Source: Streptomyces aquilus
Lineage (GTDB): Bacteria > Actinomycetota > Actinomycetes > Streptomycetales > Streptomycetaceae
DNA length: 64,000 nt
Direction of reading: 5' to 3'
NCBI RefSeq assembly: GCF_003955715.1
Contig: NZ_CP034463.1
Location: 930,001 to 994,000, forward strand
A program made the position numbers and the translations under genes. Each line of letters begins with the position of its first letter. The first letter of the stretch is position 1. Of the stretch, positions 2,547 to 59,898 are shown piece after piece. The notes under the pieces are model-generated. The model was not told the DNA's origin and did no database searches. It saw only the letters and a list, made by a program, of their open reading frames with translations.

Positions 2547-2562
2547 GGGTCCGTTCGGCACC
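2547..2562. promoter_or_regulatory. DevR/OsdR-like box upstream of the Rv1733c-like gene
   Basis: GGGTCCGTTCGGCACC fits the window-wide palindrome GGGRCCGNNCGGYCCC with two deviations. It lies 114 bp upstream of the minus-strand start at 2433. Confidence 0.45.
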
Positions 2563-2575
2563 CGACCGGCCCGGT

Positions 2576-3628
2576 TCACGACGCGGGTGCGGAGACGGTC
2601 GCCACCGGGCCGGATCGGCTCGCGTGCAGCACGGTGGCAGCGGGTCGGCGCGGTGAGGCCGAGACCTGCGTGGTGTGTCCCAGGCGCAGGATCATCTGCG
2701 GAAACCGGTCTCCGGTGAGGCGTGCCTGCAACTCCGGACGCAACTCCGGCAGTTCGAGCGGCTGGGTGTGGAAAGCCGCCGTGACATCGTGGCTCGCGGC
2801 GTACAGCAGGACCCGCTGCAGGGCCTGGCCGGCCCGCAGCCAGTCCAGCCGGGTGTCGTGCGGGGTGCTCAGCACCACGACGGTGCCCGTCCGGGCCGTC
2901 CATCGCCGGGCCCGGCCCTCGCACTGCCCGACCAGGCCCGTGTAGTCCCGCCCGGCGAGCAGCGAACCGTCCGGCGGGAGGCGGCACGCGTCGGGGGACA
3001 CCCGCTCCCACCAGTCCCGCCGGGCGTGCCCGGACCAGCCGGAGACCTCCGAGGCATGACCGGGGTCGGCGCGGTGCACGGACTCCGCCGCCCGCACCCA
3101 TTGCGCCAGCATGCGCAGCTTCTCCGGATTGTCGACCGTGTGCAGCAGCGCGCCTTCCGCGCGGGCCTGGTCGCGCAGCTCCTCCATCAGCGACCACGAC
3201 ACGGGTGTGGGTGCGAACAGCCCCCGGTGCGTGTGCCGGCGGGACAGCGCGCGCTCCATCTCCTTCGCCCGAGTGGTGGCCACGGCGTGCGCGCCCCAGG
3301 CCACATGGGCCAAGAACGCCGGCTGCGCGGGTACCGGAAGCGGCGTCACGACGGGGCGGAAGCCAAGGTTCCGCACGGCGACCCGCACATTGAAGAGGGC
3401 CGCCCCGCAGCTGATCACCAGCTCCCGGCCGGCCGGGTCGGTCAGGGGAAGCCGCCGCCCGCCGTCGGCGTGCACCTCGAACCCGTGGTCGCGCCCCTCG
3501 TCCACGAAGAACCAGGGCTGGGTGTTGTGGAGCGAGGGCGCCCGGGTGGCAGCGCGGGCGAGATGGAAGGCCGCCCGGCCGAGGAGGGCGTGCTCCGGGG
3601 GTGCGGAGGCTTCGTACGTCAGGGACAT
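2576..3628 (-). CDS. Acg-family nitroreductase-like protein
   Basis: 350 residues. The N-terminal APSLHNTQPWFF motif is the flavin-binding signature of the Acg/Rv3131 subgroup of the nitroreductase superfamily. A C-terminal segment (about 250-290) has the subgroup's DWLRAGQALQRVLL helix, and the end shows RLGH. Acg-type proteins are DosR-regulated in M. tuberculosis and have been proposed to sequester flavin; a true reductase activity should not be assumed. The start at 3628 has an upstream GGGTGG ribosome site. It may be co-transcribed from the USP gene 156 bp upstream. It is the first of three paralogues here. Confidence 0.85.
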   Translation of the reverse strand: MSLTYEASAPPEHALLGRAAFHLARAATRAPSLHNTQPWFFVDEGRDHGFEVHADGGRRLPLTDPAGRELVISCGAALFNVRVAVRNLGFRPVVTPLPVPAQPAFLAHVAWGAHAVATTRAKEMERALSRRHTHRGLFAPTPVSWSLMEELRDQARAEGALLHTVDNPEKLRMLAQWVRAAESVHRADPGHASEVSGWSGHARRDWWERVSPDACRLPPDGSLLAGRDYTGLVGQCEGRARRWTARTGTVVVLSTPHDTRLDWLRAGQALQRVLLYAASHDVTAAFHTQPLELPELRPELQARLTGDRFPQMILRLGHTTQVSASPRRPAATVLHASRSGPVATVSAPAS

Positions 3629-3669
3629 GGTGTGCCACCCTTCGGATGCCGTCCGCCTCCGGTGGCCCG

Positions 3670-3698
3670 GTCGAGGGGCCCGGCGCCTGACCCTCGAC
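3670..3698. terminator. inverted repeat between the USP and nitroreductase genes
   Basis: GTCGAGGG (3670-3677) pairs perfectly with CCCTCGAC (3691-3698) around a 13-base loop. It could be a weak terminator or processing stem. An 18-bp perfect palindrome, CGCGGTCCGCGGACCGCG (3767-3784), immediately follows the USP stop and is a second candidate. Confidence 0.35.
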
Positions 3699-3784
3699 GC
3701 CTTGTGGAGACGTTCCTCGACAAGTCGGTGCGCACGGCGAGGCGTACGACTGCTGTCTGCGTTCGCCGCGGTCCGCGGACCGCG

Positions 3785-4690
3785 TCATGGGTGCGGGACG
3801 ACGGCGACGGGGGCCGCGGAGTGATGCAGGACGGCATGTGTGACGGGGCCGATGTGCGCGCCGAACGGAGAGCGGCGGATGCGCCGGCCGACGACGACCA
3901 GGGACGCGTCACGGGAGGCGTCCATCAGGAAGTTGCCGGCCCGGCCCCAGTGTGACTCCTCGACGACCTCGACGGTGGGGTATTTCCGTCGCCACGGGAG
4001 CACGGTCTCGGTCAGGGCCTTGGCCTGCTGTGTGCTCAGCTCGCCGTGGTACTCCAGGTCCGCGGGGAGCCGGTAGGCGTAGTAGGGCGGCGGGTTCCAG
4101 CCGTGGACGACCCGCAGGGAGGTCTGCCGTCGGGCCGCGGCGTCGAAGGCGAACCCGATGACCGCCTCGTCGGGGCTGTCGGTGTCGAGTCCGAGCACGA
4201 CGGGCCGGTACGGCGTCGTCACGGACGGCATGCCCGTCGGGTCGCTCGTGTGCTCGTCGGCCGCCTGTTCGCCGGCCCGGACGAGGACGACGGGACACTC
4301 GGCGTGGGCGACGACCGCAAGGCCGACGGATCCGATCATGAAGCCGCCGATGCCGCTGAGGCCACGGGATCCGAGGGCGAGGAGATCTGCCTCCTCGGCC
4401 AGGCCGGGGAGGACTTCGTAGGCACGGCCGACGATCTGCTCCGTGGTGACGTCGACACCGGGGTGTCGCGCGCGCAGGCCTGCCGCGGCCTCGCGAGGAA
4501 TCCGTTCGACCCAGTGCTGGAAGGACTCCGCCCCCGGCGTCGGGGACTCCGCCATGGCCTCGGGCACCCCCTCCCACACATGGACCAGCCGCAAGGGTGA
4601 CCCACGCAGCCGCGCCTCCCTCGCCGCCCAGTCGGCGGCGGCCCGGCTCTCCGACGAGCCGTCAAGGCCCACGATCAGGGTGCGGGGCAT
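3785..4690 (-). CDS. universal stress protein, two UspA domains
   Basis: 301 residues made of two tandem UspA domains (about 1-145 and 155-300). The first opens with LIVGLDGSSESRAAADWAA and carries the nucleotide-binding pattern GSRGLSGIGGFMIGSVG. The second carries the degenerate GRRIRRSPFGAHIGPVTH, as in many tandem USPs. The start at 4690 is set by a GGAGGTGGAGATC ribosome site and removes a spurious upstream extension. It is closely similar to the USP at 54733-55638, including the HxxxVLHHSAAPVAVVPHP type of ending. Two dormancy-type boxes lie 63-98 bp upstream. USPs bind ATP and act in persistence; the specific role is unknown. Confidence 0.92.
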   Translation of the reverse strand: MPRTLIVGLDGSSESRAAADWAAREARLRGSPLRLVHVWEGVPEAMAESPTPGAESFQHWVERIPREAAAGLRARHPGVDVTTEQIVGRAYEVLPGLAEEADLLALGSRGLSGIGGFMIGSVGLAVVAHAECPVVLVRAGEQAADEHTSDPTGMPSVTTPYRPVVLGLDTDSPDEAVIGFAFDAAARRQTSLRVVHGWNPPPYYAYRLPADLEYHGELSTQQAKALTETVLPWRRKYPTVEVVEESHWGRAGNFLMDASRDASLVVVGRRIRRSPFGAHIGPVTHAVLHHSAAPVAVVPHP

Positions 4691-4752
4691 GATCTCCACC
4701 TCCCCATTCGGTCTGATGACTCCAGCGTCGCGGTCGCGGCATTCGGGGTGCA

Positions 4753-4788
4753 GGGGCCGCTCGTCCCCGAGCCGGGCCGACCGGCCCC
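4753..4788. promoter_or_regulatory. paired DevR/OsdR-like boxes upstream of USP
   Basis: GGGGCCGCTCGTCCCC (4753-4768) and CGGGCCGACCGGCCCC (4773-4788) are offset by 20 bp, about two helical turns. The rest of the 4691-5034 divergent gap holds only a third box (4932-4947) and no gene. Confidence 0.62.
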
Positions 4789-4931
4789 ACCGGGTCGGCG
4801 GAGCGGCGCAGACTTCGGTGCCGAAGCGATGAGACCGTCCTTCCAGGCACACCGCGGCACCGGGAGCGTCCTCGACGCGATCGTGCGGCACGGCCGGAGG
4901 GCGGACCTTCGCGGGCCGTCCGGTGCCTCTC

Positions 4932-4947
4932 GGGGCCGTACGGCCCC
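4932..4947. promoter_or_regulatory. DevR/OsdR-like box upstream of nitroreductase
   Basis: GGGGCCGTACGGCCCC is a perfect 16-bp palindrome, 88 bp before the plus-strand nitroreductase start at 5035. It is one of the two best copies in the window. Confidence 0.68.
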
Positions 4948-5034
4948 TGCACGGTCCCGTGCGGGAGCAGCACACTGGGCAGCGTCCGCAGCGAGCTCCG
5001 AGGGCTCCGGCCCACGGGGCGGGGAGGAGTTCCG

Positions 5035-6030
5035 ATGCCGACCGCAGCCCTCGCTCCGCCGCCGCTGGAGACGCTGATCTCCGCCGCCGCGGCCGCGCCG
5101 TCGATTCACAACACTCAGCCCTGGCGGTTCCGGCTCGATCCGGACACCGCGACACTGGAGGTCCGGGCCGTGGCGGACCGTGCCCTGCGCCAGATCGATC
5201 CGACGGGCCGTGCCCTGCATGTCTCGGTCGGCTGCGCGGTCCTCAACCTCCGGGTGGCGGTGGCCCACTTCGGGCGGGAACCGGTGACACGCCTGCTGCC
5301 CAGGCCCGAGGAGCCGGATCTGCTGGCGGCCGTACGGCTCGGCGGCCGTGTGCGCAGCGGGACGGCTCACCAGCTGTACACAGCCCTGTGGCACCGGCAC
5401 AGCAGCCGGTTCCCGTTCTCCGACCTGCCGCTGCCCACGTCGGTGCTGACCGAACTCGCCGAAGCCGCACACAGCGAGGGCGCGCAGCTGAGCCGCCCCG
5501 GTCCTGGCGAGACCGAGCGGTTGCTGCGGCTCACCCGGGATGCGGAACGGCGCACCACGGTGGACGCCGACAGGGCCGCTGAGAGCCGTCGCTGGGTGCA
5601 TGAACCGACCGAGGCGTCCCTGGGGATACCGCCGGAGGCGCTGGGCCCGCAGGACATCCTGGAGCGTATGCCCATGCGGGACTTCGGCGCCCACCGGCAC
5701 CCGTCCGTCCTGTCCGGCCGCCCTTTCGAGCAACGGCCGGCGATCGTCGTACTGTCGACCGCGCACGACCGCAGGACCGACTGGCTGCGTGCCGGACAGG
5801 CCCTCGAACGGGTTCTGCTGGTCGCCACCGCCCACGGGGTCCGGGCGTCCTTGCTGCACCAGGCGTTGGAGTGGCCGGATCTGCGCGAGCAGTCCGCATC
5901 GACGGCGGACGACCGCAGGGCCCACGCCCAGATGGTGATCCGCCTCGGCTACGGCCCCGAGGGCCCGGCCACGCCGCGGCGTTCGGCGCGGCAGATGGTG
6001 GACGAGGGGGCGCTGTCCGTGCACCGGTGA
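5035..6030 (+). CDS. Acg-family nitroreductase-like protein
   Basis: 331 residues with the same signature as its paralogues: APSIHNTQPWRF near residue 22, TDWLRAGQALERVLL near 242, and a C-terminal MVIRLGYGPEGPATPRR. The start is supported by GGGGAGGAGTTCCG. It is divergently placed from the USP gene, with the best box of the region between them. Function is as for the other Acg-type proteins: flavin binding is expected and the substrate is unknown. It is convergent with the third paralogue, whose stop is 54 bp away. Confidence 0.87.
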   Translation: MPTAALAPPPLETLISAAAAAPSIHNTQPWRFRLDPDTATLEVRAVADRALRQIDPTGRALHVSVGCAVLNLRVAVAHFGREPVTRLLPRPEEPDLLAAVRLGGRVRSGTAHQLYTALWHRHSSRFPFSDLPLPTSVLTELAEAAHSEGAQLSRPGPGETERLLRLTRDAERRTTVDADRAAESRRWVHEPTEASLGIPPEALGPQDILERMPMRDFGAHRHPSVLSGRPFEQRPAIVVLSTAHDRRTDWLRAGQALERVLLVATAHGVRASLLHQALEWPDLREQSASTADDRRAHAQMVIRLGYGPEGPATPRRSARQMVDEGALSVHR

Positions 6031-6084
6031 GGTGCGACGCGCCGCACCCCGGTCTCCCCAGCAGCTCCTCAGCCGCTTCTCGGC

Positions 6085-8095: not shown

Positions 8096-8135
8096 CGCTC
8101 CGTACGGCCCGATCCTGGCAGGGCCGTACGGCCCC
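8096..8135. promoter_or_regulatory. DevR/OsdR-like boxes upstream of CBS/BON gene
   Basis: AGGGCCGTACGGCCCC (8120-8135) is a near-perfect copy; CGCTCCGTACGGCCCG (8096-8111) has one good half. Both are 48-87 bp upstream of the minus-strand start at 8048. Confidence 0.62.
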
Positions 8136-8778
8136 CTCTCCCGGGACGGGCAGCCCTCTGTGGGCAGAAGCGGCAGATCACCGGCGTGAGAATCATCAGA
8201 CCGGACCCCGTCATCCGGCTGTCCGGGCATGACCGGGCTTCGCGACCGTCTCGCCCGTTTCCGGTCCACCGGCGTGCCCGGACCTGAGGTGGGCGGCGCC
8301 CGGCGAGGTGCTCCTGGACCTCGTACCGACTGGACCGACGGGCCCGACCAGCACGCCGGAGGGGTGAGTCCTGACGGACGGCCGCTCACCTCGCGCGCCT
8401 GCGGAACAGATGCCCGGCTGCCGGGCACGGCCGTACAGCCGGGCGCCGACCAGGTCCGAGGCAGGCATTCCGGTGATCTCCGCGACGCGGTGGGACGGGT
8501 AGTCGTCCAGCAGGCCGGCGGCCCGCTCGCGCAGGAACTCCTCGTCGGCCAGGCCGCCGGCGGTGGCGCGGCTGCCGGACGGCGAGCACGTCGAACGTCG
8601 CGGTGCCGGCGTCGTCACCGGCCGGTTCCGACGCCACCGACCGCGTCCTCGTGCTCGGGATCAGCGCCGGAACGCTCAAGGCTTGCCGAATGCCGCAGGC
8701 GTTCCCATGGCGGACGGCCCTGTGCTGCCGCAGGCTGGAGTGGGAGCAGCCTTCGGATCTGCGCGAGAGAAGGACAGC
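8136..8778. other. gene-poor region between CBS/BON and USP genes
   Basis: No convincing intact gene. One box-like site, TGGACCGACGGGCCCG, is at 8331-8346. On the minus strand, short stretches at about 8420-8660 look protein-like (for example LADEEFLRERAAGLLDDYPS and GTATFDVLAVRQP) but are split between two frames, so a decayed gene is possible. I could not name it. Confidence 0.4.
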
Positions 8779-10007: not shown

Positions 10008-11402
10008 TCACCCACCCTCCGGTACTCGGCGGGCGTCCAGGAACTCGGCCGGCAGCATGGCCAGTTGACTGCGCGGCAGGGTGAGCAGCACCCGCCAGGC
10101 GCGCTCCAGCGTCTGCTCCAGCGTGCGCAGTTCGCCCTGTCCCTGGTCCACAAGGCCGCGGGCGAACGCCTCGTCGAAATCCAGGTAGCAGCGGTCGGTG
10201 CTGCTGAGTGCCGCCTGCCCGACGAGGTCGGCGAGTTCCTTGACCTGGCGCGCGCGTGCCAGCGCGGAGAGGATCTGGGCCGCGACGTCGAGGTGGTCGT
10301 CGCGGGTGCGACCGGGGCCCGCCCCCTTGCGCATCAGGCGGGACAGCGAGGACAGCGCGTCCACCGGCGGATAGACGCCCTTGGCGTGCATCTGGCGGGA
10401 CAGCACGATCTGGCCCTCCGTGATGTACCCGGTGAGGTCCGGCACGGGATGGGTGATGTCACCCGCGGGCATGGTGAGCACGGGGAGCACGGTGACGGAT
10501 CCCGGCAGGCCGCGAATGCGCCCGCAACGCTCGTACAGGGATGCGAGGTCGCTGTAGAGGTAGCCGGGGTAGGCCCGGCGAGCCGGGATCTCACCGCGGG
10601 CCGCGGAGACCTCACGCAGCGCCTCGGCGTAGCTCGTCATGTCCGTCATCACCACGAGGACGTGCCGGCCCTCGGTGAAGGCGAGCTGTTCGGCGACGGT
10701 GAGCGCGATGCGCGGGGTGAGGAGGCGCTCGATCACGGGATCGTCGGCGGTGTTGAGCAGGAGGACCAGTTCGTCGGCGGCGGAACGCTCCTCCAGCGCG
10801 TCGCGGACGAAGCGAGCGTCCGCGTGGGTCACTCCCATCGCGGCGAAGACCACACAGAAGGGCTCCCCTCCGGCCGTCGACTGAGCGGCGATCTGCGCGG
10901 CCAGCTCCAGGTGGGGAAGGCCCGCCGCCGAGAACACCGGGAGCTTTTGGCCCCGTACGAGCGTGGTGAGCGCGTCGATGGTGCTGACGCCGGTCAGAAC
11001 CGGTTCGGCGGGCGGTTCGCGGCGCACCGGGTTGACAGGGTTGCCGCCGACCGCCACGGTCGACTCGCCGAAGACGGGCGGTCCCGCGTCGAGCGGCTCA
11101 CCACGGCCGTTGCACACCCGGCCCAGCCAGCCGGGGCCCACCGGGATGCGCAGCGGCGACCCGGTGAAGGCGGCGCGCAGCCGAGCCGGGTCCAGGCCCG
11201 CGGTGTCCTCCAGCACCTGCACCACGGCCGTGCCACGGTCCACTTCCAGCACGAGACCGTGGCGTCGCTCGCCCGAGTCGGGGGTGAGCAGCACGAACTC
11301 GTCCCAGCCGACGCCCTCGACCTTGTCGACGACCGCGAGCGGACCGCGCAGTTCACGCACCGAGGTGTACTCGACGCGGCCCCAGTCCGGTGTGCCGTTC
11401 AC
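10008..11402 (-). CDS. V/A-type ATPase subunit B (non-catalytic)
   Basis: 464 residues, normal for subunit B. The Walker A loop is replaced, as in all V/A-type B subunits, by LPVFSAAGLPHLELAAQIA (about 150-168). MTDMTSYAEALREVSAARGE and YPGYLYSDLASLYERCGR are further hallmarks. B alternates with A in the catalytic head and contributes to nucleotide interfaces. The start is a GTG at 11402 overlapping the subunit A stop (GTGA), with GGGGAGGCGCC upstream; this indicates tight translational coupling between A and B. Confidence 0.96.
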   Translation of the reverse strand: MNGTPDWGRVEYTSVRELRGPLAVVDKVEGVGWDEFVLLTPDSGERRHGLVLEVDRGTAVVQVLEDTAGLDPARLRAAFTGSPLRIPVGPGWLGRVCNGRGEPLDAGPPVFGESTVAVGGNPVNPVRREPPAEPVLTGVSTIDALTTLVRGQKLPVFSAAGLPHLELAAQIAAQSTAGGEPFCVVFAAMGVTHADARFVRDALEERSAADELVLLLNTADDPVIERLLTPRIALTVAEQLAFTEGRHVLVVMTDMTSYAEALREVSAARGEIPARRAYPGYLYSDLASLYERCGRIRGLPGSVTVLPVLTMPAGDITHPVPDLTGYITEGQIVLSRQMHAKGVYPPVDALSSLSRLMRKGAGPGRTRDDHLDVAAQILSALARARQVKELADLVGQAALSSTDRCYLDFDEAFARGLVDQGQGELRTLEQTLERAWRVLLTLPRSQLAMLPAEFLDARRVPEGG

Positions 11403-13147
11403 GGCGCCTCCCCGAGCCTGGCGAGCATGGTCTCGCGCAGGGCGTCCACAGTCGCCGCGTCGTGCGGTCCCGCCTCCTCGCGGGCCCGCAGCACGGGCGA
11501 GAAGTCGACTTCCTCGATGCGTGCCGCGGGCACGCCGGCGTCGGCCAGTTCGCGACAGCGGGCGACGACCGCCAGCACCGCCTCGGCCAGCGCCGCGGTC
11601 TTCTCCTCGCCGCTGTAGGCGTCCCGGTCGGACAGGGCGCTCTGCTGCAGCACGCCTTCGCGCACCAGCCGTCCGCCCAGGACGCTGACGCGCTCCTGGT
11701 CGGGCAACGCCGTGATACCGAGCAGATCCACGAGGTCGGCGAGCCGGTCGGCCTCGGCGAGCAGGCCGGCCACCCGGGACCGCCGTGCGGACCGGCCCGA
11801 GGTGTCCGTGGCGGCGTGCCGGGCGTCGAGCGCCTCGGCATCCCGGGAGAACGACTCGGCCCAGGAGACGGCCGGGTAGTGGCGGGCGTAGGCGAGGTCC
11901 CGGTCGAGGGTCCACAGACATCGCACGAAGCGCTGCGTGTGGGCGGTGACCGGCTCCGCCATGTCGCCGCCGGGCGGGGAGACCGCGCCGATCACGGTGA
12001 CCGAGCCGGTGCGGCCGCCGAGTGTGGTCACCGCCCCGGCCCGCTCGTAGAACGCCGCGATCGCCGAGGCCAGGCCCGCCGGATAGCCCTCCTCCGCGGG
12101 CAGCGCCCCGGTGCGGGAGGCGAACTCGCGCAGCGCCTCGGCCCAGCGGGAGGTCGAGTCGGCGATGACGACCACGTCCAGGCCCATGTCGCGGAAGTAC
12201 TCGGCGACCGTGACGCCGGTGTAGACGCTGGCCTCCCTCGCCATCATCGGCATGTTGGAGGTGTTGGCGACGATCACGGTCCGGTCGGCGAGGCGGCCGC
12301 CGGTGCGCGGGTCCGTCAGTGCCGTGAACTCGTCGATGACGTCGGCCATCTCGTTGCCGCGTTCACCGCAGCCGACGTAGACGATGACGTCCGCGTCGCA
12401 CCACTTGGCGATCTGCTGCAGCAGCACGGTCTTGCCGGTTCCGAAGCCGCCCGGTACGGCGACGGTGCTGCCCAGCGCGACCGGGAAGAGCAGGTCGATG
12501 GCCCGCTGGCCGGAGTGCAGTGCCCGGCCGGCGGCCAGGCGCTCGCGGACCGGGCGGGGTGTGCGCACGGGCCAGTGGCTCACCATCCGGATCGGGGTAC
12601 CCGTCACCGTCGCGAGGACGGCGTCCTCCGCTTGTGGGCCCGCCCTGGCGATCCCCTGCACCGGTCCTGTGCAGCCGGGTGGCACGAGCACCCGCAGCGG
12701 CACCGGCCCCGCGTCCCGGATCTCACCGAGGACGTCTCCCGGCGCGACGCCGTCGCCCTCCGCCACTTTCGGCGCGAACTCCCGCATGGGCCGGGGCCCG
12801 TCTCCCTCGGCGCCGCCGGCACCGGGCTTCAGCCAGGCGCCCGCCGCCGACAGCGGGCGCAGCAGTCCGTCGAAGATCCCGCCCAGCAGGCCGGGGCCCA
12901 GAGCCGCCGAGAGCGGCCTGTGCAGTGGGCGCACCGGCATGCCGGGGGCGAGACCGCCGGTGTACTCGTACGCCTGCACGGTGACGACGGTGTCACGGAT
13001 CGCGACGACCTCCCCGGGCAGTCCTGTCTGGCCCAGGGCGACCAAGTCGTACATGGCGGTACCGGTCATGCCTTCGGCCTCGACGAGCGGTCCGGTGACC
13101 CGCAGGATGCGTCCGGTGTCGTGCGGGGCGTGCGTCAGGGTGCCCAC
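11399..13147 (-). CDS. V/A-type ATPase catalytic subunit A
   Basis: 582 residues, typical for the catalytic A subunit. The Walker A loop GGFGTGKT is at 233-240 and GCGERGNEM at about 259-267. STSRWAEALREFASRTGALPAEEGYP and PPGGDMAEPVT are conserved nucleotide-site and torque-loop segments. A non-homologous insert region (about 115-185) distinguishes A from F-type beta. I chose GTG 13147 because GGAGGAGCT precedes it; longer extensions run through the upstream gene. The A/B pair hydrolyses or makes ATP coupled to ion flow through subunits I and K. Confidence 0.97.
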   Translation of the reverse strand: MGTLTHAPHDTGRILRVTGPLVEAEGMTGTAMYDLVALGQTGLPGEVVAIRDTVVTVQAYEYTGGLAPGMPVRPLHRPLSAALGPGLLGGIFDGLLRPLSAAGAWLKPGAGGAEGDGPRPMREFAPKVAEGDGVAPGDVLGEIRDAGPVPLRVLVPPGCTGPVQGIARAGPQAEDAVLATVTGTPIRMVSHWPVRTPRPVRERLAAGRALHSGQRAIDLLFPVALGSTVAVPGGFGTGKTVLLQQIAKWCDADVIVYVGCGERGNEMADVIDEFTALTDPRTGGRLADRTVIVANTSNMPMMAREASVYTGVTVAEYFRDMGLDVVVIADSTSRWAEALREFASRTGALPAEEGYPAGLASAIAAFYERAGAVTTLGGRTGSVTVIGAVSPPGGDMAEPVTAHTQRFVRCLWTLDRDLAYARHYPAVSWAESFSRDAEALDARHAATDTSGRSARRSRVAGLLAEADRLADLVDLLGITALPDQERVSVLGGRLVREGVLQQSALSDRDAYSGEEKTAALAEAVLAVVARCRELADAGVPAARIEEVDFSPVLRAREEAGPHDAATVDALRETMLARLGEAP

Positions 13148-13662
13148 AGCTCCTCCATCTCCGTGCCGATCCGGTCGAGGGCCCGGTGCGCGAACGAGGC
13201 CAGACTGCAGTCGATCCGGCGGCCCGGGGCTTCGCCGATGACACCTCCGCCCGGGGCCTCGGTGATCCGGGCACCCGGCCCCACCAACCGCCTCACGCAC
13301 GTCGCCAGTTGCTCGCGCACGCGCGGGTAGGCCTCGGTGCCGCGCAGTTCCTCGACGCCCCGCACGACCTGTCGGCGCAGTTCCTCCCAGCACTCCCGGC
13401 GGGCGGCGAGCTCCTGGGTGCGGGCAGCCCGGCGAGATCGGGCGCGTATCGCGCGGCGGGCGGCCGCGGCGTCGGACGTGCCCTGCCCGCGGGCCTCGGC
13501 GAGGATCTCCGCGGCACGGTTCTCGGCGTTCTCGAGCACGCCGGCGGCGTCCGCGGCCGCCGCGGCCAGTACGGCCTCGGCGTCGGCCCTGGCGTCCCGG
13601 AGCAGCCGGTTTCGTACGGGTTCGAGTGCCGCCGTGGTTCCGGCGGGCGTCGAGGTCCTCAT
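13135..13662 (-). CDS. V/A-type ATPase subunit E (peripheral stalk)
   Basis: 175 residues. The N-terminal two thirds is an Ala/Glu/Arg-rich helix expected to form the stalk coiled coil with subunit G/H. The C-terminal part (about 100-175) contains EAPGGGVIGEAPGRRIDCSLASF, close to the globular E-subunit motif that binds the head. It overlaps the F gene (ATGA) upstream and the A gene by 13 bases downstream. Sequence divergence is high, so the call relies on this motif and operon position. Confidence 0.85.
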   Translation of the reverse strand: MRTSTPAGTTAALEPVRNRLLRDARADAEAVLAAAAADAAGVLENAENRAAEILAEARGQGTSDAAAARRAIRARSRRAARTQELAARRECWEELRRQVVRGVEELRGTEAYPRVREQLATCVRRLVGPGARITEAPGGGVIGEAPGRRIDCSLASFAHRALDRIGTEMEELWAP

Positions 13663-13880
13663 GGTGGCATCACCGCGGTGAGCGGATCCTCTGCGTCGAG
13701 CGGTCCCGGGCCGAGGGCGGCGGCCGCGGCAGGGGTGACGATGACGAGCCCCACCTCCGGAGGGAGCCCGCGCCAGGCGGCCCGCACGGCCTCCGGGTCC
13801 TCCGCGGGGAACGTGACGACGCCGGCTGTCGCCAGCCCGACGACGCGCAGCCGTTCCCCGATGGCCGCGATGTGCGTCAT
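13659..13880 (-). CDS. V/A-type ATPase subunit F (rotor)
   Basis: A short 73-residue protein; the family is usually about 100, so this is a compact version. THIAAIGERLRVVGLATAGV matches the first strand-helix of F subunits, and GLVIVTPAAAAAL matches the middle strand. F binds D in the central shaft and can modulate activity. ATG 13880 is preferred with GGAAAGAGT upstream; a TTG at 13886 overlapping the K stop is the alternative. Confidence 0.8.
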   Translation of the reverse strand: MTHIAAIGERLRVVGLATAGVVTFPAEDPEAVRAAWRGLPPEVGLVIVTPAAAAALGPGPLDAEDPLTAVMPP

Positions 13881-13882
13881 GG

Positions 13883-15727
<1,845 letters not shown>

Positions 15728-15744
<17 letters not shown>

Positions 15745-16654
15745 CGAAGACCTCCCGTGCCAGGCCGCCGTGCGCGGCGCACTCCAGACCGGCGCGGACC
15801 CGCCAGGCGTCGGTGCTCAGCACCGCGGCCGCACCGACGACCGGCGACACGTCGAAGCGTGCCCCGCTCAGCATGGACAAGGCGTCGCGTTCGACCGTCG
15901 GCCACCAGCGGGCCTCGGCGCGCCACAGGTCCTCCGGCCGTTCGACACCTGCCAGCGCCCAGCGGGCCGCCGGCGACAACCGGGTGCGGAAGTCGCCGAA
16001 GGACGGGGCACGTACGGCTGCCGTACCGAGCAGCCGCACGGCGTCCCGCGTGGCCGCCCCGGTCAGGCGACGGCTCATCAAGTAGACCTCCCGGGCCACC
16101 AGCAGCGCGGCGTCTCCCGCCGCCCACCGCGCGGCCGGCGGAAGGTTCGCCGCGGTGCGGGCGGCCGCCGACAGGCACATCCCGGTGATCACCGCCGCCG
16201 GGGTCTCGGCCCCGGGATCGCCCCACTGCGAGGAAGCCAGCACGGCCCGCACCTCGGCCGGGGAGGTGGCTCGGGACAGTCGCGGCCAGGCCGTCGACAA
16301 CGCCCCCAGCCGGTACGGCGGAGGCTGCGGCGAGCCGGCCAGGGCCCGTAGACGGTTGCGGGTGTTCGCGATCTCGAAACCCGATGCCAACAGGCGTACG
16401 GCGGCGGCACCGGGCCGTGGCTGCCAACCGGCCAGGACCCGCAGCTGCCACACCAGGGCGTCGAAGACCGCCCGCTGTGCCGCGGCGGCCTCGGCCTCCA
16501 CATCGAGTCCGCGCCGGTACGGAGTGCTCGCCAGCACACGCAGGGAATCGGACAGGCTCGTCGCGGTCGCCAGAGCACGCGCGGTGTCGGGCCCGGCGCG
16601 CCCGGCGGCCATGGCCCGGGCCCGGGTCACTCCTGCGACCCATCCCGCACCCAT
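15728..16654 (-). CDS. V/A-type ATPase subunit C (d-like rotor cap)
   Basis: 308 residues, helical and Ala/Arg-rich. Subunit C couples the central shaft to the membrane ring. Segments such as RGLDVEAEAAAAQRAVFDAL and GFEIANTRNRLRALAG fit the repeated helix bundle with the Asn-Arg motif seen in V-ATPase d/C subunits. AGGAGGCGTC precedes ATG 16654. The call is mostly from operon position and size between H and I. Confidence 0.8.
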
Positions 16655-17121
16655 GACGCCTCCTGACGTGCTCCGGGCGGCTCCGCCTCCGCGAGAGCGC
16701 TGAGTTCGTCGGCCACCTCGGCCACCAGGCGCGCCGCCAGGTCCGGAGTGCGCGCACGGGCCCGCTCCCGCAGTGCCTCCACGGCGCGCCGCGCGGCGCT
16801 CTCCGCGCGGGCGGCCTCGGTGAGGGCCTCGTCCCTGCCCCGGGCCGCGGTCTCGCTCCGCACGTCCAGGGCACGCGCCCGCGCCGCCCGCACGGTCCGG
16901 TCGGCCCGCTCCGCCGCGGCCGCACGGCGTGCCGCGGCATCGCGGGTGGCGGCCTCACGTATCGCCGCGGCCTCACGGGCGGTGTCGTCCAGCAAGGTCA
17001 GCGGAGGCTCCAGCTCGGCCGCCAGCTCGGCGGACCGATCGGCGGGTACGGCCCCACCGACCGCCGGACCAGGCGAACCGGCCGGCCGGAAACGCGCGAG
17101 GAACTCGCGAAAGCCAGGCAT
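16627..17121 (-). CDS. V/A-type ATPase subunit G/H (peripheral stalk)
   Basis: 164 residues, first gene of the operon. From about residue 45 onward it is a continuous Ala/Arg/Glu-rich helix, expected to form the stalk coiled coil with subunit E. No other domain is seen. GGGAGGTCTTC lies before ATG 17121. It overlaps the C gene by 28 bases. The operon promoter should be in the 184-bp gap to the divergent CBS/BON gene, where a dormancy-type box sits. Confidence 0.75.
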   Translation of the reverse strand: MPGFREFLARFRPAGSPGPAVGGAVPADRSAELAAELEPPLTLLDDTAREAAAIREAATRDAAARRAAAAERADRTVRAARARALDVRSETAARGRDEALTEAARAESAARRAVEALRERARARTPDLAARLVAEVADELSALAEAEPPGARQEASWVRDGSQE

Positions 17122-17218: not shown

Positions 17219-17234
17219 GGGGCCGGGCGGCCCT
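17219..17234. promoter_or_regulatory. DevR/OsdR-like box between the ATPase operon and CBS/BON gene
   Basis: GGGGCCGGGCGGCCCT lies in the divergent gap, 98 bp from the ATPase operon start and 72 bp from the CBS/BON start. Another inverted repeat, AACCCCACAGGGGT, is at about 17190-17203. Confidence 0.6.
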
Positions 17235-23929: not shown

Positions 23930-23945
23930 GGTGCCGGTCGGCCCC
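23930..23945. promoter_or_regulatory. DevR/OsdR-like box upstream of MsiK-like gene
   Basis: GGTGCCGGTCGGCCCC, one deviation from the consensus, lies between the minus-strand ABC ATPase start (23845) and the plus-strand gene at 24005. Confidence 0.5.
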
Positions 23946-29617: not shown

Positions 29618-29633
29618 GGGGCCCACCGGCCCT
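29618..29633. promoter_or_regulatory. DevR/OsdR-like box
   Basis: GGGGCCCACCGGCCCT. Both half-sites are good but the central four bases differ from GNNC. There is no gene start nearby except the distant USP (30294). Confidence 0.4.
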
Positions 29634-29995: not shown

Positions 29996-30011
29996 CGGGC
30001 CGAACGGCCCC
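29996..30011. promoter_or_regulatory. DevR/OsdR-like box upstream of decayed ORF and USP
   Basis: CGGGCCGAACGGCCCC, nearly perfect. It lies about 35 bp before a decayed reading frame that leads into the USP gene, so it probably drove both. Confidence 0.6.
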
Positions 30012-34141: not shown

Positions 34142-34157
34142 GGGGCCGATGGTCCCC
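34142..34157. promoter_or_regulatory. DevR/OsdR-like box upstream of ABC exporter
   Basis: GGGGCCGATGGTCCCC. Both halves match the consensus; only a central base departs. Confidence 0.65.
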
Positions 34158-34622: not shown

Positions 34623-34658
34623 AGGGCCGTTCGGCCTCGACGAGGGCCCGACGGGCTC
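34623..34658. promoter_or_regulatory. paired DevR/OsdR-like boxes upstream of aldolase
   Basis: AGGGCCGTTCGGCCTC (34623-34638) and a weaker AGGGCCCGACGGGCTC (34643-34658), offset by 20 bp, 72-107 bp before the aldolase start. Confidence 0.55.
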
Positions 34659-36193: not shown

Positions 36194-36230
36194 GGGGCCG
36201 AACAGCCCGGTTTCCGGGCCGTCCGGCCCT
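36194..36230. promoter_or_regulatory. paired DevR/OsdR-like boxes between DUF1918 and CBS/BON genes
   Basis: GGGGCCGAACAGCCCG (36194-36209) and CGGGCCGTCCGGCCCT (36215-36230), offset by 21 bp, in the divergent gap. They could serve both genes. Confidence 0.66.
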
Positions 36231-41707: not shown

Positions 41708-41768
41708 AGTGCCGTACGGCTCCCCGTGGATGGGCCGTCCGGCACCGACCGGAGGACCGTTCGGCCAC
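41708..41768. promoter_or_regulatory. three phased DevR/OsdR-like boxes upstream of GerMN lipoprotein
   Basis: AGTGCCGTACGGCTCC (41708-41723), TGGGCCGTCCGGCACC (41731-41746) and AGGACCGTTCGGCCAC (41753-41768), offset by 23 and 22 bp. Confidence 0.6.
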
Positions 41769-43082: not shown

Positions 43083-43119
43083 TGGGCCGACCGGTCCCGT
43101 CGGGGAGCCGCTCGGCCCT
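43083..43119. promoter_or_regulatory. paired DevR/OsdR-like boxes upstream of hsp20
   Basis: TGGGCCGACCGGTCCC (43083-43098) and GGAGCCGCTCGGCCCT (43104-43119), offset by 21 bp, between the pntB stop and the hsp20 start (43011). Confidence 0.66.
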
Positions 43120-46180: not shown

Positions 46181-46292
46181 GGCACCTCCCGCGCGCCCGT
46201 TCAGTGGTCCTCCCCGTCAGCCTCACGCTCACGCCGCGCCGGGACCCCGCCGCAGAGGCCGAACGTCCCCTGCGCCAGGGCCCCTTGGGCCG

Positions 46293-47363
46293 TCAGGCCG
46301 CCGGTACGGCGACGACGTCGTGCCGCGGCCCGCCCAGCACCACCTTGAGCGCGCCGGTGTCAGCGGCGCGGGCGAAGACGTCGTACGCCTCTTCCATGGC
46401 GTCCAACGGGAAGGTGTGGGTGACCAGCGACGAGGTCGGCAGCCGACCGGCGGCCGCCATCCGCAGCAGGGTGGGTGTGGAGTGGGTGTCGACGAGACCG
46501 GTGGTGATGGTCAGGTTCTTGATCCACAGTTCTTCGAGGTGCAGGGTGGCCGGCCTGCCGTGCACGCCGACGTTGGCCACGTGCCCGCCGGGCCGCACCA
46601 TGCGGGTGCACAGCTCGAAGGTCTCCGGCACGCCGACGGCCTCGATGGCCACGTCCGCGCCGAGTCCGTCGGTGAGGTCGGCGATCAGCTGCTCGGGAGA
46701 CTCGCCGGCGAAGGCCACCGCGTCGGCGCCGAACGACCGGGCGGCCTCCAGCCGGGACGCGGCCAGGTCCACGACGACGATCCGCTCGGGGGCGAACAGC
46801 CGGGCCGTGGCCACGGCCGCCAGCCCGATGGGACCGGCACCGACGACAGCGACGGTGTCCCCGGGCCGAACCCGCCCGTTGAGCACGCCCACCTCGTAGG
46901 CCGTCGGGAAGATGTCGGCCAGCAACACGGCGTCCTGGCTCTCCAGGGTGCTGGGCAGCGGGTGGACGGACAGGTCGGCGTACGGGACCCGTACGTACTC
47001 GGCCTGAGTGCCGTCGATGAGGTGGCCGAGGATCCAGCCCCCGCCGCCCCGGCACTGGCCGTAGCCGCCCTCACGGCAGTAGCGGCAGCGCCCGCAGGCG
47101 GTGATGCAGGAGACGAGGACGCGGTCCCCCGGGCGCACGGTGCGGACGTCTCCGCCGACCTCGACGATCTCGCCGACCGCCTCGTGCCCGAGGACGGTCC
47201 CGGGGCGGACCTCGGGCACGTCGCCCTTGAGGATGTGCAGGTCCGTTCCGCAGATGGTGACGGTGTCGACGCGGACGATCGCGTCCGTGGGTTCCTTGAC
47301 ACCGGGGTCCGGGACGTCCTCCCAGGAGGACTGTCCGGGCCCGTGGAAGACGAAGCCCTTCAT
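46293..47363 (-). CDS. zinc-dependent alcohol dehydrogenase (MDR family)
   Basis: 356 residues. Catalytic zinc ligands lie in ICGTDLHILKG and GHEAVGEIV; the structural zinc cysteines are in CGRCRYCREGGYGQC, one fewer spacing than usual but all four present. VAVVGAGPIGLAAVATARL is the NAD-binding loop. Belongs to the Tdh/FdhA-like MDR dehydrogenases; substrate unknown. A tiny ATG-TCA-TGA reading unit overlaps its start, with GAAAGGCAGGC in front. One strong box lies 59 bp upstream. Confidence 0.92.
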   Translation of the reverse strand: MKGFVFHGPGQSSWEDVPDPGVKEPTDAIVRVDTVTICGTDLHILKGDVPEVRPGTVLGHEAVGEIVEVGGDVRTVRPGDRVLVSCITACGRCRYCREGGYGQCRGGGGWILGHLIDGTQAEYVRVPYADLSVHPLPSTLESQDAVLLADIFPTAYEVGVLNGRVRPGDTVAVVGAGPIGLAAVATARLFAPERIVVVDLAASRLEAARSFGADAVAFAGESPEQLIADLTDGLGADVAIEAVGVPETFELCTRMVRPGGHVANVGVHGRPATLHLEELWIKNLTITTGLVDTHSTPTLLRMAAAGRLPTSSLVTHTFPLDAMEEAYDVFARAADTGALKVVLGGPRHDVVAVPAA

Positions 47364-47421: not shown

Positions 47422-47437
47422 TGGGCCGGTCGGCCCC
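47422..47437. promoter_or_regulatory. DevR/OsdR-like box upstream of zinc ADH
   Basis: TGGGCCGGTCGGCCCC, near-perfect palindrome, 59 bp before the minus-strand start at 47363. Confidence 0.66.
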
Positions 47438-52051: not shown

Positions 52052-52089
52052 TGGGCCGCCCGGGCGGCTCCGCTGGGCCGGTCGGCCCT
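52052..52089. promoter_or_regulatory. DevR/OsdR-like boxes upstream of the GNAT/acyl-CoA synthetase operon
   Basis: TGGGCCGGTCGGCCCT (52074-52089) is nearly perfect; TGGGCCGCCCGGGCGG (52052-52067) is a weaker copy 22 bp away. Confidence 0.62.
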
Positions 52090-53679: not shown

Positions 53680-53684
53680 CACGT

Positions 53685-55698: not shown

Positions 55699-55734
55699 GG
55701 GGCCGCAGGTCCCCGCGCGGGGCCGAACGGCCCA
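55699..55734. promoter_or_regulatory. paired DevR/OsdR-like boxes between USP operon and SulP
   Basis: GGGGCCGCAGGTCCCC (55699-55714) and GGGGCCGAACGGCCCA (55719-55734), offset by 20 bp, in the divergent gap between 55638 and 55816. Confidence 0.7.
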
Positions 55735-57535: not shown

Positions 57536-58459
57536 TCAGGCGCCCGGCAGATCGGGCCGCACCAGCGTCCCCGAGCGACCGTGCACGATCTCGTACGCCG
57601 CGTCCAGCGCCCCGATCGCGGCCAGTTGACCGGTGTGCTCCACGAACCGGGCGGCGGCCTCCGCCTTCGGCCCCATGGTGGCGGGGTCGTAGGCGGCGGC
57701 ACGGAGTTCGGCGGGGGTGACGTCGAGCACCGGCCGCCGGTCGGGGGTGCCGTGTCCGGCGTAGACGTTGGGGACGTCGGTGAGGACGAGCAGGAAGTCG
57801 GCCTTCACGTCCTCGGCGAGCCGGGCGGCGGCGAGGTCCTTGTCGACGACCGCCTCCACGCCGCGCAGCGCTCCGGTGGCCCCGTCGGAGACGACGGGTA
57901 CGCCGCCACCGCCCGCGCACACCACCACACTGCCCGTCTCCAGCAGCACCCGGACCGAGTCGCACTCCAGAACTCGCTCGGGCTGCGGTGCCGGGACCAT
58001 CCGGCGTCGGCCGCCCCGCGTCCTGGCCATGACCCAGCCGTGCTCGGCCGCCAGGAAGTCGGCGATCTTGTCCGGGTAGGCCGGTCCGACGGGTTCCGTG
58101 GGCCGCTCGAAGGCCGGGTCGTCGCCTCGCACCTGAGTGTGGGTGAGCAGGGCGACGACCCGGCGCCCGGGCAGCGCGTCGCGCAGGCCGCGCACCAGGA
58201 GGGTGCCGATCAGGCCTTGGGTCTGGGCGCCGAGCAGGTCCAGCGGGTAGGGCGCGGCGAGCGACCGGTTCGCCACGCTCTCGTGGGCCAGTAGCCCCAG
58301 CTGGGGGGTGTTGCCGTGGGTGATGACGAGGTCGTGTTCATGGGCGAGGGCCGCGACGGCGGTGGCGACGCGGACGACGTTCGCCCGCTGGACGTCCGCG
58401 TCCGGCCGGTCGCCGCGGCGGAGCAGGGCGTTGCCGCCGAGGGCGACGACGATGCGCAT
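57536..58459 (-). CDS. arcC: carbamate kinase
   Basis: 307 residues of the amino-acid kinase fold. IVVALGGNALLRRGD is the N-terminal phosphate loop, VCAGGGGVPVV the second glycine motif, and VVDKDLAAARLA with LLVLTDVPNVYAG the nucleotide region. MGPKAEAAARFVE closes the family signature. It makes ATP from carbamoyl phosphate and ADP, usually after arginine or agmatine breakdown; no arcA/arcB is adjacent. GAGGAGTCCAGCC precedes ATG 58459. Fits substrate-level ATP supply without oxygen. Confidence 0.96.
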   Translation of the reverse strand: MRIVVALGGNALLRRGDRPDADVQRANVVRVATAVAALAHEHDLVITHGNTPQLGLLAHESVANRSLAAPYPLDLLGAQTQGLIGTLLVRGLRDALPGRRVVALLTHTQVRGDDPAFERPTEPVGPAYPDKIADFLAAEHGWVMARTRGGRRRMVPAPQPERVLECDSVRVLLETGSVVVCAGGGGVPVVSDGATGALRGVEAVVDKDLAAARLAEDVKADFLLVLTDVPNVYAGHGTPDRRPVLDVTPAELRAAAYDPATMGPKAEAAARFVEHTGQLAAIGALDAAYEIVHGRSGTLVRPDLPGA

Positions 58460-58587: not shown

Positions 58588-58703
58588 TGGCCGGGGCGTG
58601 TCCGGACGTCCACGCTGGTGGTGGTAGCTCCGTATGCCGTCCCGGACGCCCGTGGCTCCCCGTCCCCGGGTCCGTGCGGCACGCGACCCTCTGGAGGCAC
58701 GCC

Positions 58704-59168
58704 ATGAACGCACCCGCAACGACGAGCATGCCGCGGGCGCTGCCTGCCGCACACCGCGAGCGCCTGATGCGGATCGGCCGTGAGGTCTCCTTCCCCGAGG
58801 GCGTCCGGCTCTTCGAGGAGGGCTCTCACGCCGACCGTTTCTGGATCGTCCGCACCGGAACGGTCGACCTGGACATCCGGGTGCCGGGCCGGCGGGCCGC
58901 GGTCATCGAGTCCCTGGGACACAACGAACTCGTCGGCTGGTCCTGGCTGTTCCCGCCGTACGTCTGGCACCTGGGCGCCGGCACATCGTCGCCGCTGCGG
59001 GCGTACGAGTTCGACGCGGCCGCCGTGCGCCGGATGTGCGAGGACGACCCCGAGTTCGGCCGGACGATCGCCCGGTGGGTCGCCGAGGTCGTCGCCCATC
59101 GCCTGCAGGCGGCCCGTACCCGGCTGCTCGACCTGTACGCCCCCTATGGCAGCGGCGGACTGCGCTGA
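58704..59168 (+). CDS. cyclic-nucleotide-binding-domain protein without DNA-binding domain
   Basis: 154 residues. REVSFPEGVRLFEEGSHADRFWIVRTGTVDLDI is a Crp-type beta-barrel start, and the core continues through IESLGHNELVGWSWLFPPY and a closing helix. The helix-turn-helix of Crp/Fnr regulators is absent, and the Arg-Ser phosphate cassette is not evident, so ligand binding is uncertain. TGGAGGCACGCC precedes ATG 58704. A CBS/BON gene follows 37 bp later. Possibly a stand-alone sensor. Confidence 0.85.
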   Translation: MNAPATTSMPRALPAAHRERLMRIGREVSFPEGVRLFEEGSHADRFWIVRTGTVDLDIRVPGRRAAVIESLGHNELVGWSWLFPPYVWHLGAGTSSPLRAYEFDAAAVRRMCEDDPEFGRTIARWVAEVVAHRLQAARTRLLDLYAPYGSGGLR

Positions 59169-59205
59169 CCCGAGTCCCGTACCGATCTCGTACCAAGGAG
59201 TCACC

Positions 59206-59868
59206 GTGCCCGGAACACCGCACATCGTCAGTGACGTCATGACGCGCGACGTGGCCTGCGTGGATCGCGGCGCCGCCTTCAAGGACATCGTGCGGACCAT
59301 GCAGGACCGCAAGGTCAGCGCGCTGCCCGTGGTGGACGGCCGCGGCCGGATCGTCGGGGTGGTCTCCGAGGCCGATCTGCTGCCGAAGGAGGAGTTCCGC
59401 GACAGCGACCCCGACCGGTACACCCAGTTGCGCCGGCTGGCCGACCTGGCGAAGGCCGGTTCGGTCACGGCCGGCGAGCTGATGACCTCCCCCGCCCTGA
59501 CCGTCACGCCCGACGTGACGCTCGCCCAGGCGGCACGGACGATGGCGCGGGCCAGGGTCAAGCGGCTGCCGGTCGTCGACGCCGAGGGCCGGCCGACCGG
59601 GATCGTCAGCCGGGCCGATCTGCTCAAGGTGTTCCTGCGCGGCGACGAGGACATCGCGGAGGAGGTGCGGCGGGAGGTCGTCGCCTATCTGTTCCCGACC
59701 CAGGCGGACGCGGTGCGCGTCGAGGTCCGCGACGGTGTCGTGCGGCTGGGCGGCCGGGTCCGTGACACGTCCCTGGTCCCGGTGGCGGCGCGGTTGGTCC
59801 GCGCGGTGGAGGGGGTCGTGGACATCGAGTTCCGGCTCGACCACGGTGAGCAAGCGGATCTTCACTGA
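59206..59868 (+). CDS. CBS-domain pair plus BON domain protein (short form)
   Basis: 220 residues from GTG 59206, chosen for AAGGAGTCACC upstream. CBS 1: VSDVMTRDVACVDRGAAFKDIV with GVVSEADLLPKEEF; CBS 2: LMTSPALTVTPDVTLAQAARTM with GIVSRADLLKVFLRGDE. BON part (about 155-215): VRVEVRDGVVRLGGRV. Same architecture as 36329-36991. Fifth CBS/BON gene of the window; co-transcribed with the cNMP-domain gene. Confidence 0.9.
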   Translation: MPGTPHIVSDVMTRDVACVDRGAAFKDIVRTMQDRKVSALPVVDGRGRIVGVVSEADLLPKEEFRDSDPDRYTQLRRLADLAKAGSVTAGELMTSPALTVTPDVTLAQAARTMARARVKRLPVVDAEGRPTGIVSRADLLKVFLRGDEDIAEEVRREVVAYLFPTQADAVRVEVRDGVVRLGGRVRDTSLVPVAARLVRAVEGVVDIEFRLDHGEQADLH

Positions 59869-59882
59869 TCCTGCGCGCGACT

Positions 59883-59898
59883 GGGGCCGGTCGGCCCT
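59883..59898. promoter_or_regulatory. DevR/OsdR-like box upstream of the DevR-like regulator
   Basis: GGGGCCGGTCGGCCCT, near-perfect palindrome 83 bp before ATG 59981. A weaker TGGTGCAGTCGGCCCC follows at 59898-59913. Suggests autoregulation. Confidence 0.66.

Follow-up and report, generated by a model that had tools for sequence, protein, structure and literature searches.

A box-rich island in Streptomyces aquilus: putative operators of an OsdR/DevR-type low-oxygen regulon

A 16-bp palindrome recurs before the genes of a 64,000-nucleotide stretch of the Streptomyces aquilus chromosome (contig NZ_CP034463.1, positions 930,001 to 994,000; here called the window). The palindrome equals the consensus AGGGCCGATCGGCCCT published for OsdR, a response regulator of Streptomyces (PMC5069765), and its copies are very probably binding sites of OsdR/DevR-family response regulators that would drive an island of low-oxygen genes. 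The window is the middle of this box-rich island, which spans about 145 kb. An original prediction, made from the letters of the window, had proposed a DevR/OsdR box; the motif does match the published OsdR box, but motif and regulon were already known. The switch is known, then, and the regulon is extended and partly new. Measured against the literature searched and the main text of PMC5069765, the additions are regulon content, a spacing rule, a second kinase and a third close regulator in this genome.

Palindrome counts and the chance background

Could the repeats be GC-rich palindromes that arise by chance in a genome of 73% GC? Loose matches behave in this manner. With up to three mismatches to GGGRCCGNNCGGYCCC the window holds 138 copies against a mean of 130 in dinucleotide shuffles, which is the chance level, and a scan at this setting was rejected; loose patterns also come close to their control genome-wide. 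Closer matches do not. The exact palindrome occurs once (4932-4947), 12 copies are found at up to one mismatch (shuffle mean 1.41, largest 6, n = 100) and 36 at up to two (mean 17.0, largest 28). All 12 of the former and 29 of the 36 are intergenic by our own gene calls, made with a simple codon-usage caller that left 11.9% of the window intergenic. The 'about 30 copies' of the original prediction are reached only at two mismatches, where about half are expected by chance; the comparison with shuffled sequence that it asked for gives a clear excess at one mismatch.

Across the whole genome (10.39 Mb, a single contig) there are 127 places at up to one mismatch; the window accounts for 12 of them, against an expectation of 0.78 (P 5e-11). 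A strict form, RGGGCCGNNCGGCCCY, has 12 copies genome-wide, compared with 3 for a reversed control, and ten of the 12 lie within 934-1064 kb, i.e. 1.25% of the chromosome (P 6e-18). Low-mismatch sites are far from chance; loose ones are not. Shuffles and clustering refute a chance origin, and boxes keep their positions before orthologous genes (see below), so that the probability left to this explanation is practically negligible.

Site density by the published matrix and extent of the island

The OsdR consensus was derived from the osdR promoters of 12 Streptomyces and tested by electrophoretic mobility shift assay (EMSA) on selected targets (PMC5069765). A position weight matrix (PWM) was built, in both orientations, from Table 1 of Urem et al. 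2016, which prints 25 distinct sites (the authors count 43 sites). Intergenic sites number 17 of 17 at scores of at least 11, 21 of 23 at 10 or above and 25 of 31 at 8 or above (binomial P 2e-16, 8e-18 and 3e-18, respectively). Equal density inside coding regions had been named as an outcome that would speak against a regulon; all 17 strong sites are intergenic, in a window of which intergenic DNA makes up about 12%.

A matrix scan of this kind had been suggested with the original prediction and was run on the window and a same-genome control. The 17 sites of the window correspond to 2.7 per 10 kb, the 14 found in 400 kb of control DNA (twenty spaced stretches of the same genome) to 0.35 per 10 kb, a 7.6-fold difference. 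The reversed matrix finds 5 sites of at least 11 in the window. In the flanks there are 3 sites in 40 kb on the left and 19 in 100 kb on the right, and 37 of the 39 sites of the whole 204-kb region are intergenic. The motif had been called window-wide; the box-rich region passes both window edges and covers about 920-1065 kb. The controls relied on throughout are same-genome stretches, the reversed pattern and coding windows.

All ten positions of the original prediction that were checked proved correct and intergenic by our own gene calls. Their strength is mixed: seven score 11.3-19.5 with the published matrix, whereas those at 58572 (4.0), 55699 (5.9) and 2547 (10.2) are weak, and several of the sites listed belong to the background or are weak partners in tandem pairs.

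Box frequency also goes with presence of the regulator. Among 60 other Streptomyces genomes (own genome left out), strict boxes of the RGGGCCGNNCGGCCCY type average 7.6 in the 39 that carry an osdR-clade copy and 4.9 in the 21 that do not (P 0.0015, at a clade cut-off of 1e-90 chosen after the values were seen). The reversed control gives 7.0 and 7.9 for the same two groups, with no difference in that direction.

Regulators, kinases and the regulator promoter

A DosR-like regulator had been reported in the window. The protein encoded at 59981-60685 does have DevR (3c3w) as its best match among solved structures (E 2.4e-72, 246 bits; next match 2.7e-41), and a stretch EKTVKN(H/Y)(I/V)SRLLAKLG, which includes the recognition helix, aligns with DevR. 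It is, however, one of three close paralogues and a candidate binder only: the genome encodes a 77% identical protein at about 1060.0-1060.7 kb and a 61% identical one at 5.49 Mb, the next being at 46%. The paralogue at 5.49 Mb is perhaps the counterpart of SCO3818, which we put forward as a candidate assignment.

The regulator gene of the window is preceded by a strong box, GGGGCCGGTCGGCCCT, which suggests autoregulation. Of the 80 closest loci (78 of them titled Streptomyces), 76 have a box of at least 11 in the 300 bp before the regulator, mostly at -86 to -96; such a box is found in 1.1% of random 300-bp control windows of the own genome and in 7.1% of windows in the same, box-rich loci. 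In 75 distinct aligned regulator promoters the box holds 1.49 bits per column and its upstream flank 0.11. Another shared feature of these promoters is a GATGATC-like word, a candidate -10 element, at 22-28 bp on the downstream side of the box. Beyond boxes of the 204-kb region a CTGGA word recurs at +27 in 6 copies, where 0.16 would be expected per position; 10 of 300 shifted controls did as well, and some of its promoters look like duplicates, so that it is not claimed.

A regulator and kinase gene stand side by side outside the window, at about 1058.1-1060.7 kb and 70 kb from the window regulator. The kinase (574 aa, GAF-GAF-HisKA_3-HATPase) has a GAF domain that matches the sensor domains of DosT and DevS (E 3e-51 to 9e-45), and a 79% copy at 1015.4-1017.1 kb represents a second DevS-like kinase. 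By homology, the pairing of a regulator with a DevS/DosT-like kinase is found for the 1060-kb paralogue and, as far as HisKA_3-type kinase genes go, not for the window regulator. Two boxes stand before the 1060-kb regulator, one of 20.7 and one of 22.0, which is the strongest of the region. In Streptomyces coelicolor one kinase (SCO0203) serves both SCO0204 and the orphan SCO3818 (PMC3881020; PMC5069765), which makes cross-feeding plausible here.

A putative anaerobic energy module and conservation of its boxes

Of interest are the energy genes before which boxes stand. In the window, a V/A-type ATPase operon and a putative acetate--CoA ligase gene are so placed; outside it are a hydrogenase operon with maturation genes (14.3, 12.9), the gamma-alpha-beta genes of a pyruvate:ferredoxin oxidoreductase (POR; 18.9), a flavohaemoglobin-like gene (20.6) and more genes for universal stress proteins (USPs). 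Subunits A and B of the ATPase exceed the NCBIfam subfamily cut-offs; K, I and E are over, C is at and F just below the Pfam cut-offs. Both the catalytic subunits A and B and the membrane subunits K and I of a V/A-type enzyme are present. The class I fructose-bisphosphate aldolase gene is assigned with 630 bits to NF006707 (cut-off 327). A glyceraldehyde-3-phosphate dehydrogenase gene also lies in the island (L004:3273-4340), with no box of its own shown.

The flank hydrogenase genes (locus L002), which are accompanied by hypF, hypC and a maturation protease gene, best match sulfhydrogenase alpha, delta and beta and the gamma subunit AsrB, all below NCBIfam cut-offs. The enzyme may be a [NiFe] hydrogenase of group 3b, a group marked by large, small, NAD(P)-binding and Fe-S beta subunits of the sulfhydrogenase type. 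The ligase (49283-51988) carries Pfam CoA-binding, CoA-ligase and ATP-grasp domains, with TIGR02717 as best NCBIfam match (372 bits, cut-off 567). With these matches below cut-off, '3b-like' and 'ADP-forming' are leads only.

Are the boxes kept before these genes in relatives? A search of 121 Streptomyces genomes, the own included, was followed by a scan for boxes of at least 11 upstream of the loci returned. Such a box precedes 22 of 30 acetate--CoA ligase loci (30 of the 37 matches were scanned as loci), and in 19 of the 22 it is centred at -89 to -95. The figures are 6 of 7 for POR gamma and 15 of 28 for the hydrogenase beta subunit, compared with 0/240, 0/7 and 2/84, respectively, in coding windows of the same loci. 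Only 7 of the 121 genomes carry POR, and in each of the six besides our own it goes together with hydrogenase and ligase (P 6e-5 and 3e-4).

Among 61 genomes of mixed kinship, six encode the ATPase A subunit (2 of 37 Streptomyces, own included), as do 4 of 11 picked for regulator closeness or large contigs. The promoter of the operon was read in eight of nine other genomes (five of the genus Streptomyces, four of them behind named loci, two of the order and one of the class); in G057 the contig begins too close to the A subunit gene. Six of the eight have a box of at least 11, about 70-155 bp before the first gene, one has a box of 7.3 and L124 has none of 7 or above. Two of the loci, L119 and L120, have no CBS gene like that of the window at the ATPase promoter. 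Since box-rich DNA surrounds these genes, the background to compare with is that of tiles from seven of the eight loci, 19 of 354 of which have a box of at least 11.

Tandem boxes

Many promoters carry a second box. Counting each promoter once, with a second box of at least 4 and spacing taken centre to centre, a second box at 20-24 bp is present in 16 of the 37 promoters of the 204-kb region (8 of 16 in the window), while every other spacing bin from 16 to 54 bp has 0 or 1 promoter. In 80 related loci, 139 of 411 promoters have a second box at 20-24 bp; other bins have 3-22 each. As this spacing is about two helical turns, paired dimers would sit on nearly the same face of the DNA. DevR binds adjacent primary and secondary boxes cooperatively (PMC3029386), and the pairs found here are suited to binding of that kind. 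The 20-24 bp rule may be a sharper predictor of true OsdR targets than the single-box consensus. The main text of PMC5069765 contains no word that starts with 'tandem', 'spaced' or 'paralog', and its single 'cooperativ' is part of a reference title.

Palindromes might also act at the RNA level, as hairpins of terminators or 5' untranslated regions, and folding of such GC-rich repeats is conceivable. But the sites stand before gene starts and in divergent promoters, tandem pairs hold their spacing, the ligase boxes hold their distance, and a like sequence has been tested by EMSA as an OsdR site in S. coelicolor (PMC5069765). RNA hairpins are thus very unlikely to account for the repeats.

Weighing the evidence

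Several observations weigh against the palindromes being OsdR-type operators, or against the window protein as their binder. Genome-wide, the control pattern with its letters read backwards has 95 places at up to one mismatch (127 for GGGRCCGNNCGGYCCC), and another, looser box pattern has 54 against 51 for its reversed control. A consensus hit outside the island is therefore mostly background, and a regulon list drawn genome-wide from nothing but the consensus was discarded. Column-permuted matrices find a mean of 3.4 sites of at least 11 in the window with a maximum of 23, above the real 17, but such matrices serve badly as a control, since GGCC-like palindromes reappear in some of the permutations. 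A box of at least 11 is absent before 8 of 30 ligases, 1 of 7 POR, 13 of 28 hydrogenase and 2 of 8 ATPase loci, and before the regulator in 4 of 80 loci (L081, L083, L097, L111); in all these counts relatives are not independent samples. In the regulator promoters conservation extends past the box into the next 30 bp downstream (0.86 bits per column), so that it cannot be credited to the box alone. A search for a TANNNT -10 element at a fixed distance from the boxes found none. Urem et al. took the published consensus itself from osdR promoters (PMC5069765). None of the 45 matches in the genome to HisKA_3, the one kinase family searched for, falls within 930001-994000, and no HisKA_3-type kinase gene adjoins the window regulator. 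Lastly, two other DevR-like paralogues could be the real binder.

Which protein, then, binds the boxes? The operators could be real and have as main binder the 1060-kb paralogue with its kinase, or the 5.49-Mb paralogue. The 1060-kb protein is nearer to DevR (E 1.8e-78, 267 bits) than the window regulator, has the strongest box and adjoins a kinase gene, and in S. coelicolor one kinase is shared by SCO0204 and the orphan SCO3818 (PMC3881020). On the other side, regulators of the window type are themselves preceded by a box in nearly all of their closest loci, and the recognition-helix stretch matches DevR. A different main binder is a real possibility but a rather doubtful one.

Box-bearing genes of the window and side observations

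The positions of the boxes are given in Table 1. USP, Hsp20, nitroreductase and alcohol dehydrogenase (ADH) genes, as in OsdR/DevR regulons, are among the box-bearing genes; the nitroreductases and several USPs of the window are named by eye, and a flank nitroreductase is identified by Pfam. Of the targets named in the original prediction, USPs, a nitroreductase-like gene, Hsp20, ADH, the GNAT/CoA ligase, SulP, aldolase and an exporter-like pair do have boxes before them.

Table 1. Putative boxes and related features. Scores are from the PWM of published sites; 'by eye' marks genes named from their translation. Positions are those of the window unless a locus is given.
Feature	Position	Strand	PWM score	Remarks
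V/A-type ATPase operon	10008..17121	-		B, A, E, F, K (c ring), I, C/AC39; first gene without Pfam match
Tandem boxes, 20 bp apart	4753..4788	.	10.2, 15.3	before USP-like gene 3785-4690(-), by eye
Tandem boxes, 20 bp apart	4912..4947	.	5.7, 17.5	before nitroreductase-like gene 5035-6030(+), by eye
Triple box array, 24 and 22 bp spacing	8096..8157	.	5.6, 19.5, 4.9	before CBS/BON-like gene 7179-8048(-), by eye
Box, divergent promoter	17219..17234	.	11.5	V/A-ATPase operon 10008-17121(-) / CBS-BON gene 17306-18172(+)
Box	23930..23945	.	12.8	centre 89 bp before ABC transporter ATPase gene 22649-23848(-), ABC_tran
Box, target uncertain	29618..29633	.	15.0	region before USP-like gene 30045-30806(+)
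Box	29996..30011	.	16.6	before USP-like gene 30045-30806(+); true start maybe ~250 bp further down, by eye
Box	34142..34157	.	13.7	centre 65 bp before ABC exporter-like pair 31509-34084(-), by eye
Tandem boxes, 20 bp apart	34623..34658	.	17.0, 7.6	before class I fructose-bisphosphate aldolase gene 34727-35782(+)
Tandem boxes, 21 bp apart	36194..36230	.	12.7, 16.7	before CBS/BON-like gene 36329-36991(+), by eye
Triple box array, 23 and 22 bp spacing	41708..41768	.	8.4, 10.6, 9.2	before putative lipoprotein gene 40644-41657(-), by eye
Tandem boxes, 21 bp apart	43083..43119	.	11.3, 6.3	before Hsp20 gene 42589-43011(-), HSP20
Box and weak second site, 31 bp apart	46255..46301	.	13.9, 6.4	~290-320 bp before NAD(P) transhydrogenase operon 43130-45975(-)
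Box	47422..47437	.	15.2	66 bp before zinc ADH-like gene 46293-47363(-), ADH_N
Box	52074..52089	.	17.1	93 bp before GNAT / acetate--CoA ligase-like gene 49283-51988(-)
Tandem boxes, 20 bp apart	55699..55734	.	5.9, 16.5	between USP-ADH-USP genes 52804-55638(-) and SulP transporter gene 55816-57528(+)
Putative autoregulatory box GGGGCCGGTCGGCCCT	59883..59898	.	18.7	centre -90 from regulator start
DevR/OsdR-type response regulator	59981-60685	+		best PDB match DevR 3c3w
Regulator-kinase pair	L006: regulator 5993-6742, kinase 4147-5871	-		outside the window

The weak second site of the transhydrogenase region falls at the end of the ADH gene; the operon itself is assigned by the families PNTB and AlaDh_PNT. 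At 55699..55734, the neighbouring ADH and SulP genes were found by family search and the USPs by eye.

Some other genes deserve mention. A carbamate kinase gene at 57536-58459(-), a possible source of ATP without respiration, has a box of 9.4 and a weak second box of 4.0 upstream. The genes at 37473-39550(-) consist of a type III sulfide:quinone reductase (NF049943, a 'selenoprotein subtype' model, 551 bits, cut-off 525) with DsrC/TusE-like and DsrE-like genes, and their upstream boxes are weak (6.2 and 7.0). A 1145-aa protein (24697-28134(+)) appears by eye to join polysaccharide deacetylase, glycosyltransferase and acyltransferase-like membrane domains. Two similar-looking 154-aa proteins, with a cyclic-nucleotide-binding-type domain only, are encoded near the window regulator (58704-59168) and beside the hydrogenase genes (L002:15663-16127). 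At least seven CBS-type proteins are found in the island, several beside boxes: 7179-8048, 17306-18172, 36329-36991, 48539-49270 and 59206-59868 in the window, L002:19033-19659 and L003:14876-15562 in the flanks. CBS-BON is confirmed by Pfam in four (17306, 59206 and both flank copies), the others being assigned by eye.

Relation to known systems

The original prediction likened the palindrome to the DosR box, which it gave as GGGAC-N4-GTCCC. It is very probably a box of the DevR/OsdR family, but its core differs from that of the DosR box in this form, and the palindrome equals the OsdR consensus.

The nearest known system is the OsdR (SCO0204)/OsdK regulon of S. coelicolor (PMC5069765), which as described there shares with the island the 16-bp palindrome, a DevR-type regulator, a heme-GAF kinase homologue and USP, ADH and nitroreductase genes around the regulator; the autoregulatory box is at -81 in the published case and at -90 here. 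Differences are that the window regulator has no adjoining HisKA_3-type kinase gene, that two DevS-like kinases are present, and that no nitrate reductase operon was recognised among the annotated genes, not every gene having been scanned. Boxes here precede hydrogenase, POR, acetate--CoA ligase, class I aldolase and V/A-ATPase genes, and words beginning 'hydrogenase', 'ATPase', 'ferredoxin', 'acetyl-CoA' and 'aldolase' are not found in the main text of PMC5069765. Work on the same S. coelicolor two-component pair under the name DevSR (SCO0203/SCO0204) showed that nitric oxide (NO) lowers autophosphorylation of the kinase and that the regulator binds upstream of narG2 (PMC4766573); it concerns nitrate reductase and NO, and the text at hand has neither the box nor an energy module. 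A DevS-like kinase that serves more than one DevR-like regulator, as SCO0203 does with the orphan SCO3818 (PMC3881020; PMC5069765), may have its likeness here, but two close kinases and three close regulators are present in S. aquilus.

In Mycobacterium tuberculosis the DevR/DosR regulon, under a related regulator, likewise has closely packed primary and secondary boxes, which are bound cooperatively (PMC3029386), but its gene content differs, and the 20-24 bp centre-to-centre rule is that of the island. The closest precedent for the energy genes is Mycobacterium smegmatis, where the hydrogenase Hyh, which mediates hypoxic fermentation, is under DosST/DosR control (PMC13098282). There a dormancy regulator governs a hydrogenase; here POR, acetate--CoA ligase and V/A-ATPase genes are boxed as well, and in Streptomyces. 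Among the open-access papers that searches brought up on V-type ATPases in Streptomyces and actinobacteria and on group 3b hydrogenases in Streptomyces, none concerns such a link to hypoxia by its title or start of abstract.

Proposed mechanism and significance

DevS/DosT-type heme kinases act as sensors and phosphorylate their regulators, whose dimers bind cooperatively and activate; this much is family knowledge. From the box statistics, tandem spacing, conservation and homologies laid out above we infer how the boxes would be used in this strain, and with that the activation, the signal and the physiology. As oxygen falls, a putative heme-GAF kinase of the DevS/DosT kind (two copies, outside the window) most likely phosphorylates the regulators, to judge from their families. 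Phosphorylated dimers would bind the strong box and, if cooperativity is as in DevR, recruit a second dimer to the weaker box two helical turns away. Promoters would be activated from boxes centred mostly about 65-110 bp before start codons. The outcome would be a low-oxygen survival island of about 145 kb, with USP, Hsp20, CBS-BON and nitroreductase-like genes, the regulator itself and an anaerobic energy module, the latter made up of class I aldolase, POR, acetate--CoA ligase (probably of the ADP-forming type), a 3b-like [NiFe] hydrogenase, transhydrogenase and the V/A-type ATPase.

What might such a module do? Streptomyces are textbook strict aerobes. It is conceivable, and put forward here tentatively, that some of them carry an OsdR-switched island for H2-producing fermentation, in which a dormancy switch turns on an ATP-yielding anaerobic metabolism. 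Under anoxia, glycolysis with its boxed class I aldolase would feed POR, an acetate--CoA ligase of the ADP-forming type would yield acetate and ATP, and the 3b-like hydrogenase would dispose of electrons as H2. Transhydrogenase and V/A-ATPase could balance NADPH and membrane energy.

The OsdR switch has so far been described in Streptomyces, in the literature cited, by way of stress, nitrate reduction, NO and development (PMC5069765; PMC4766573; PMC3881020). If the conserved boxes work, the switch would be tied to a fermentative energy module and a rotary V/A-ATPase as well, and the question of how strictly aerobic filamentous bacteria stay energised without oxygen would become a testable one.

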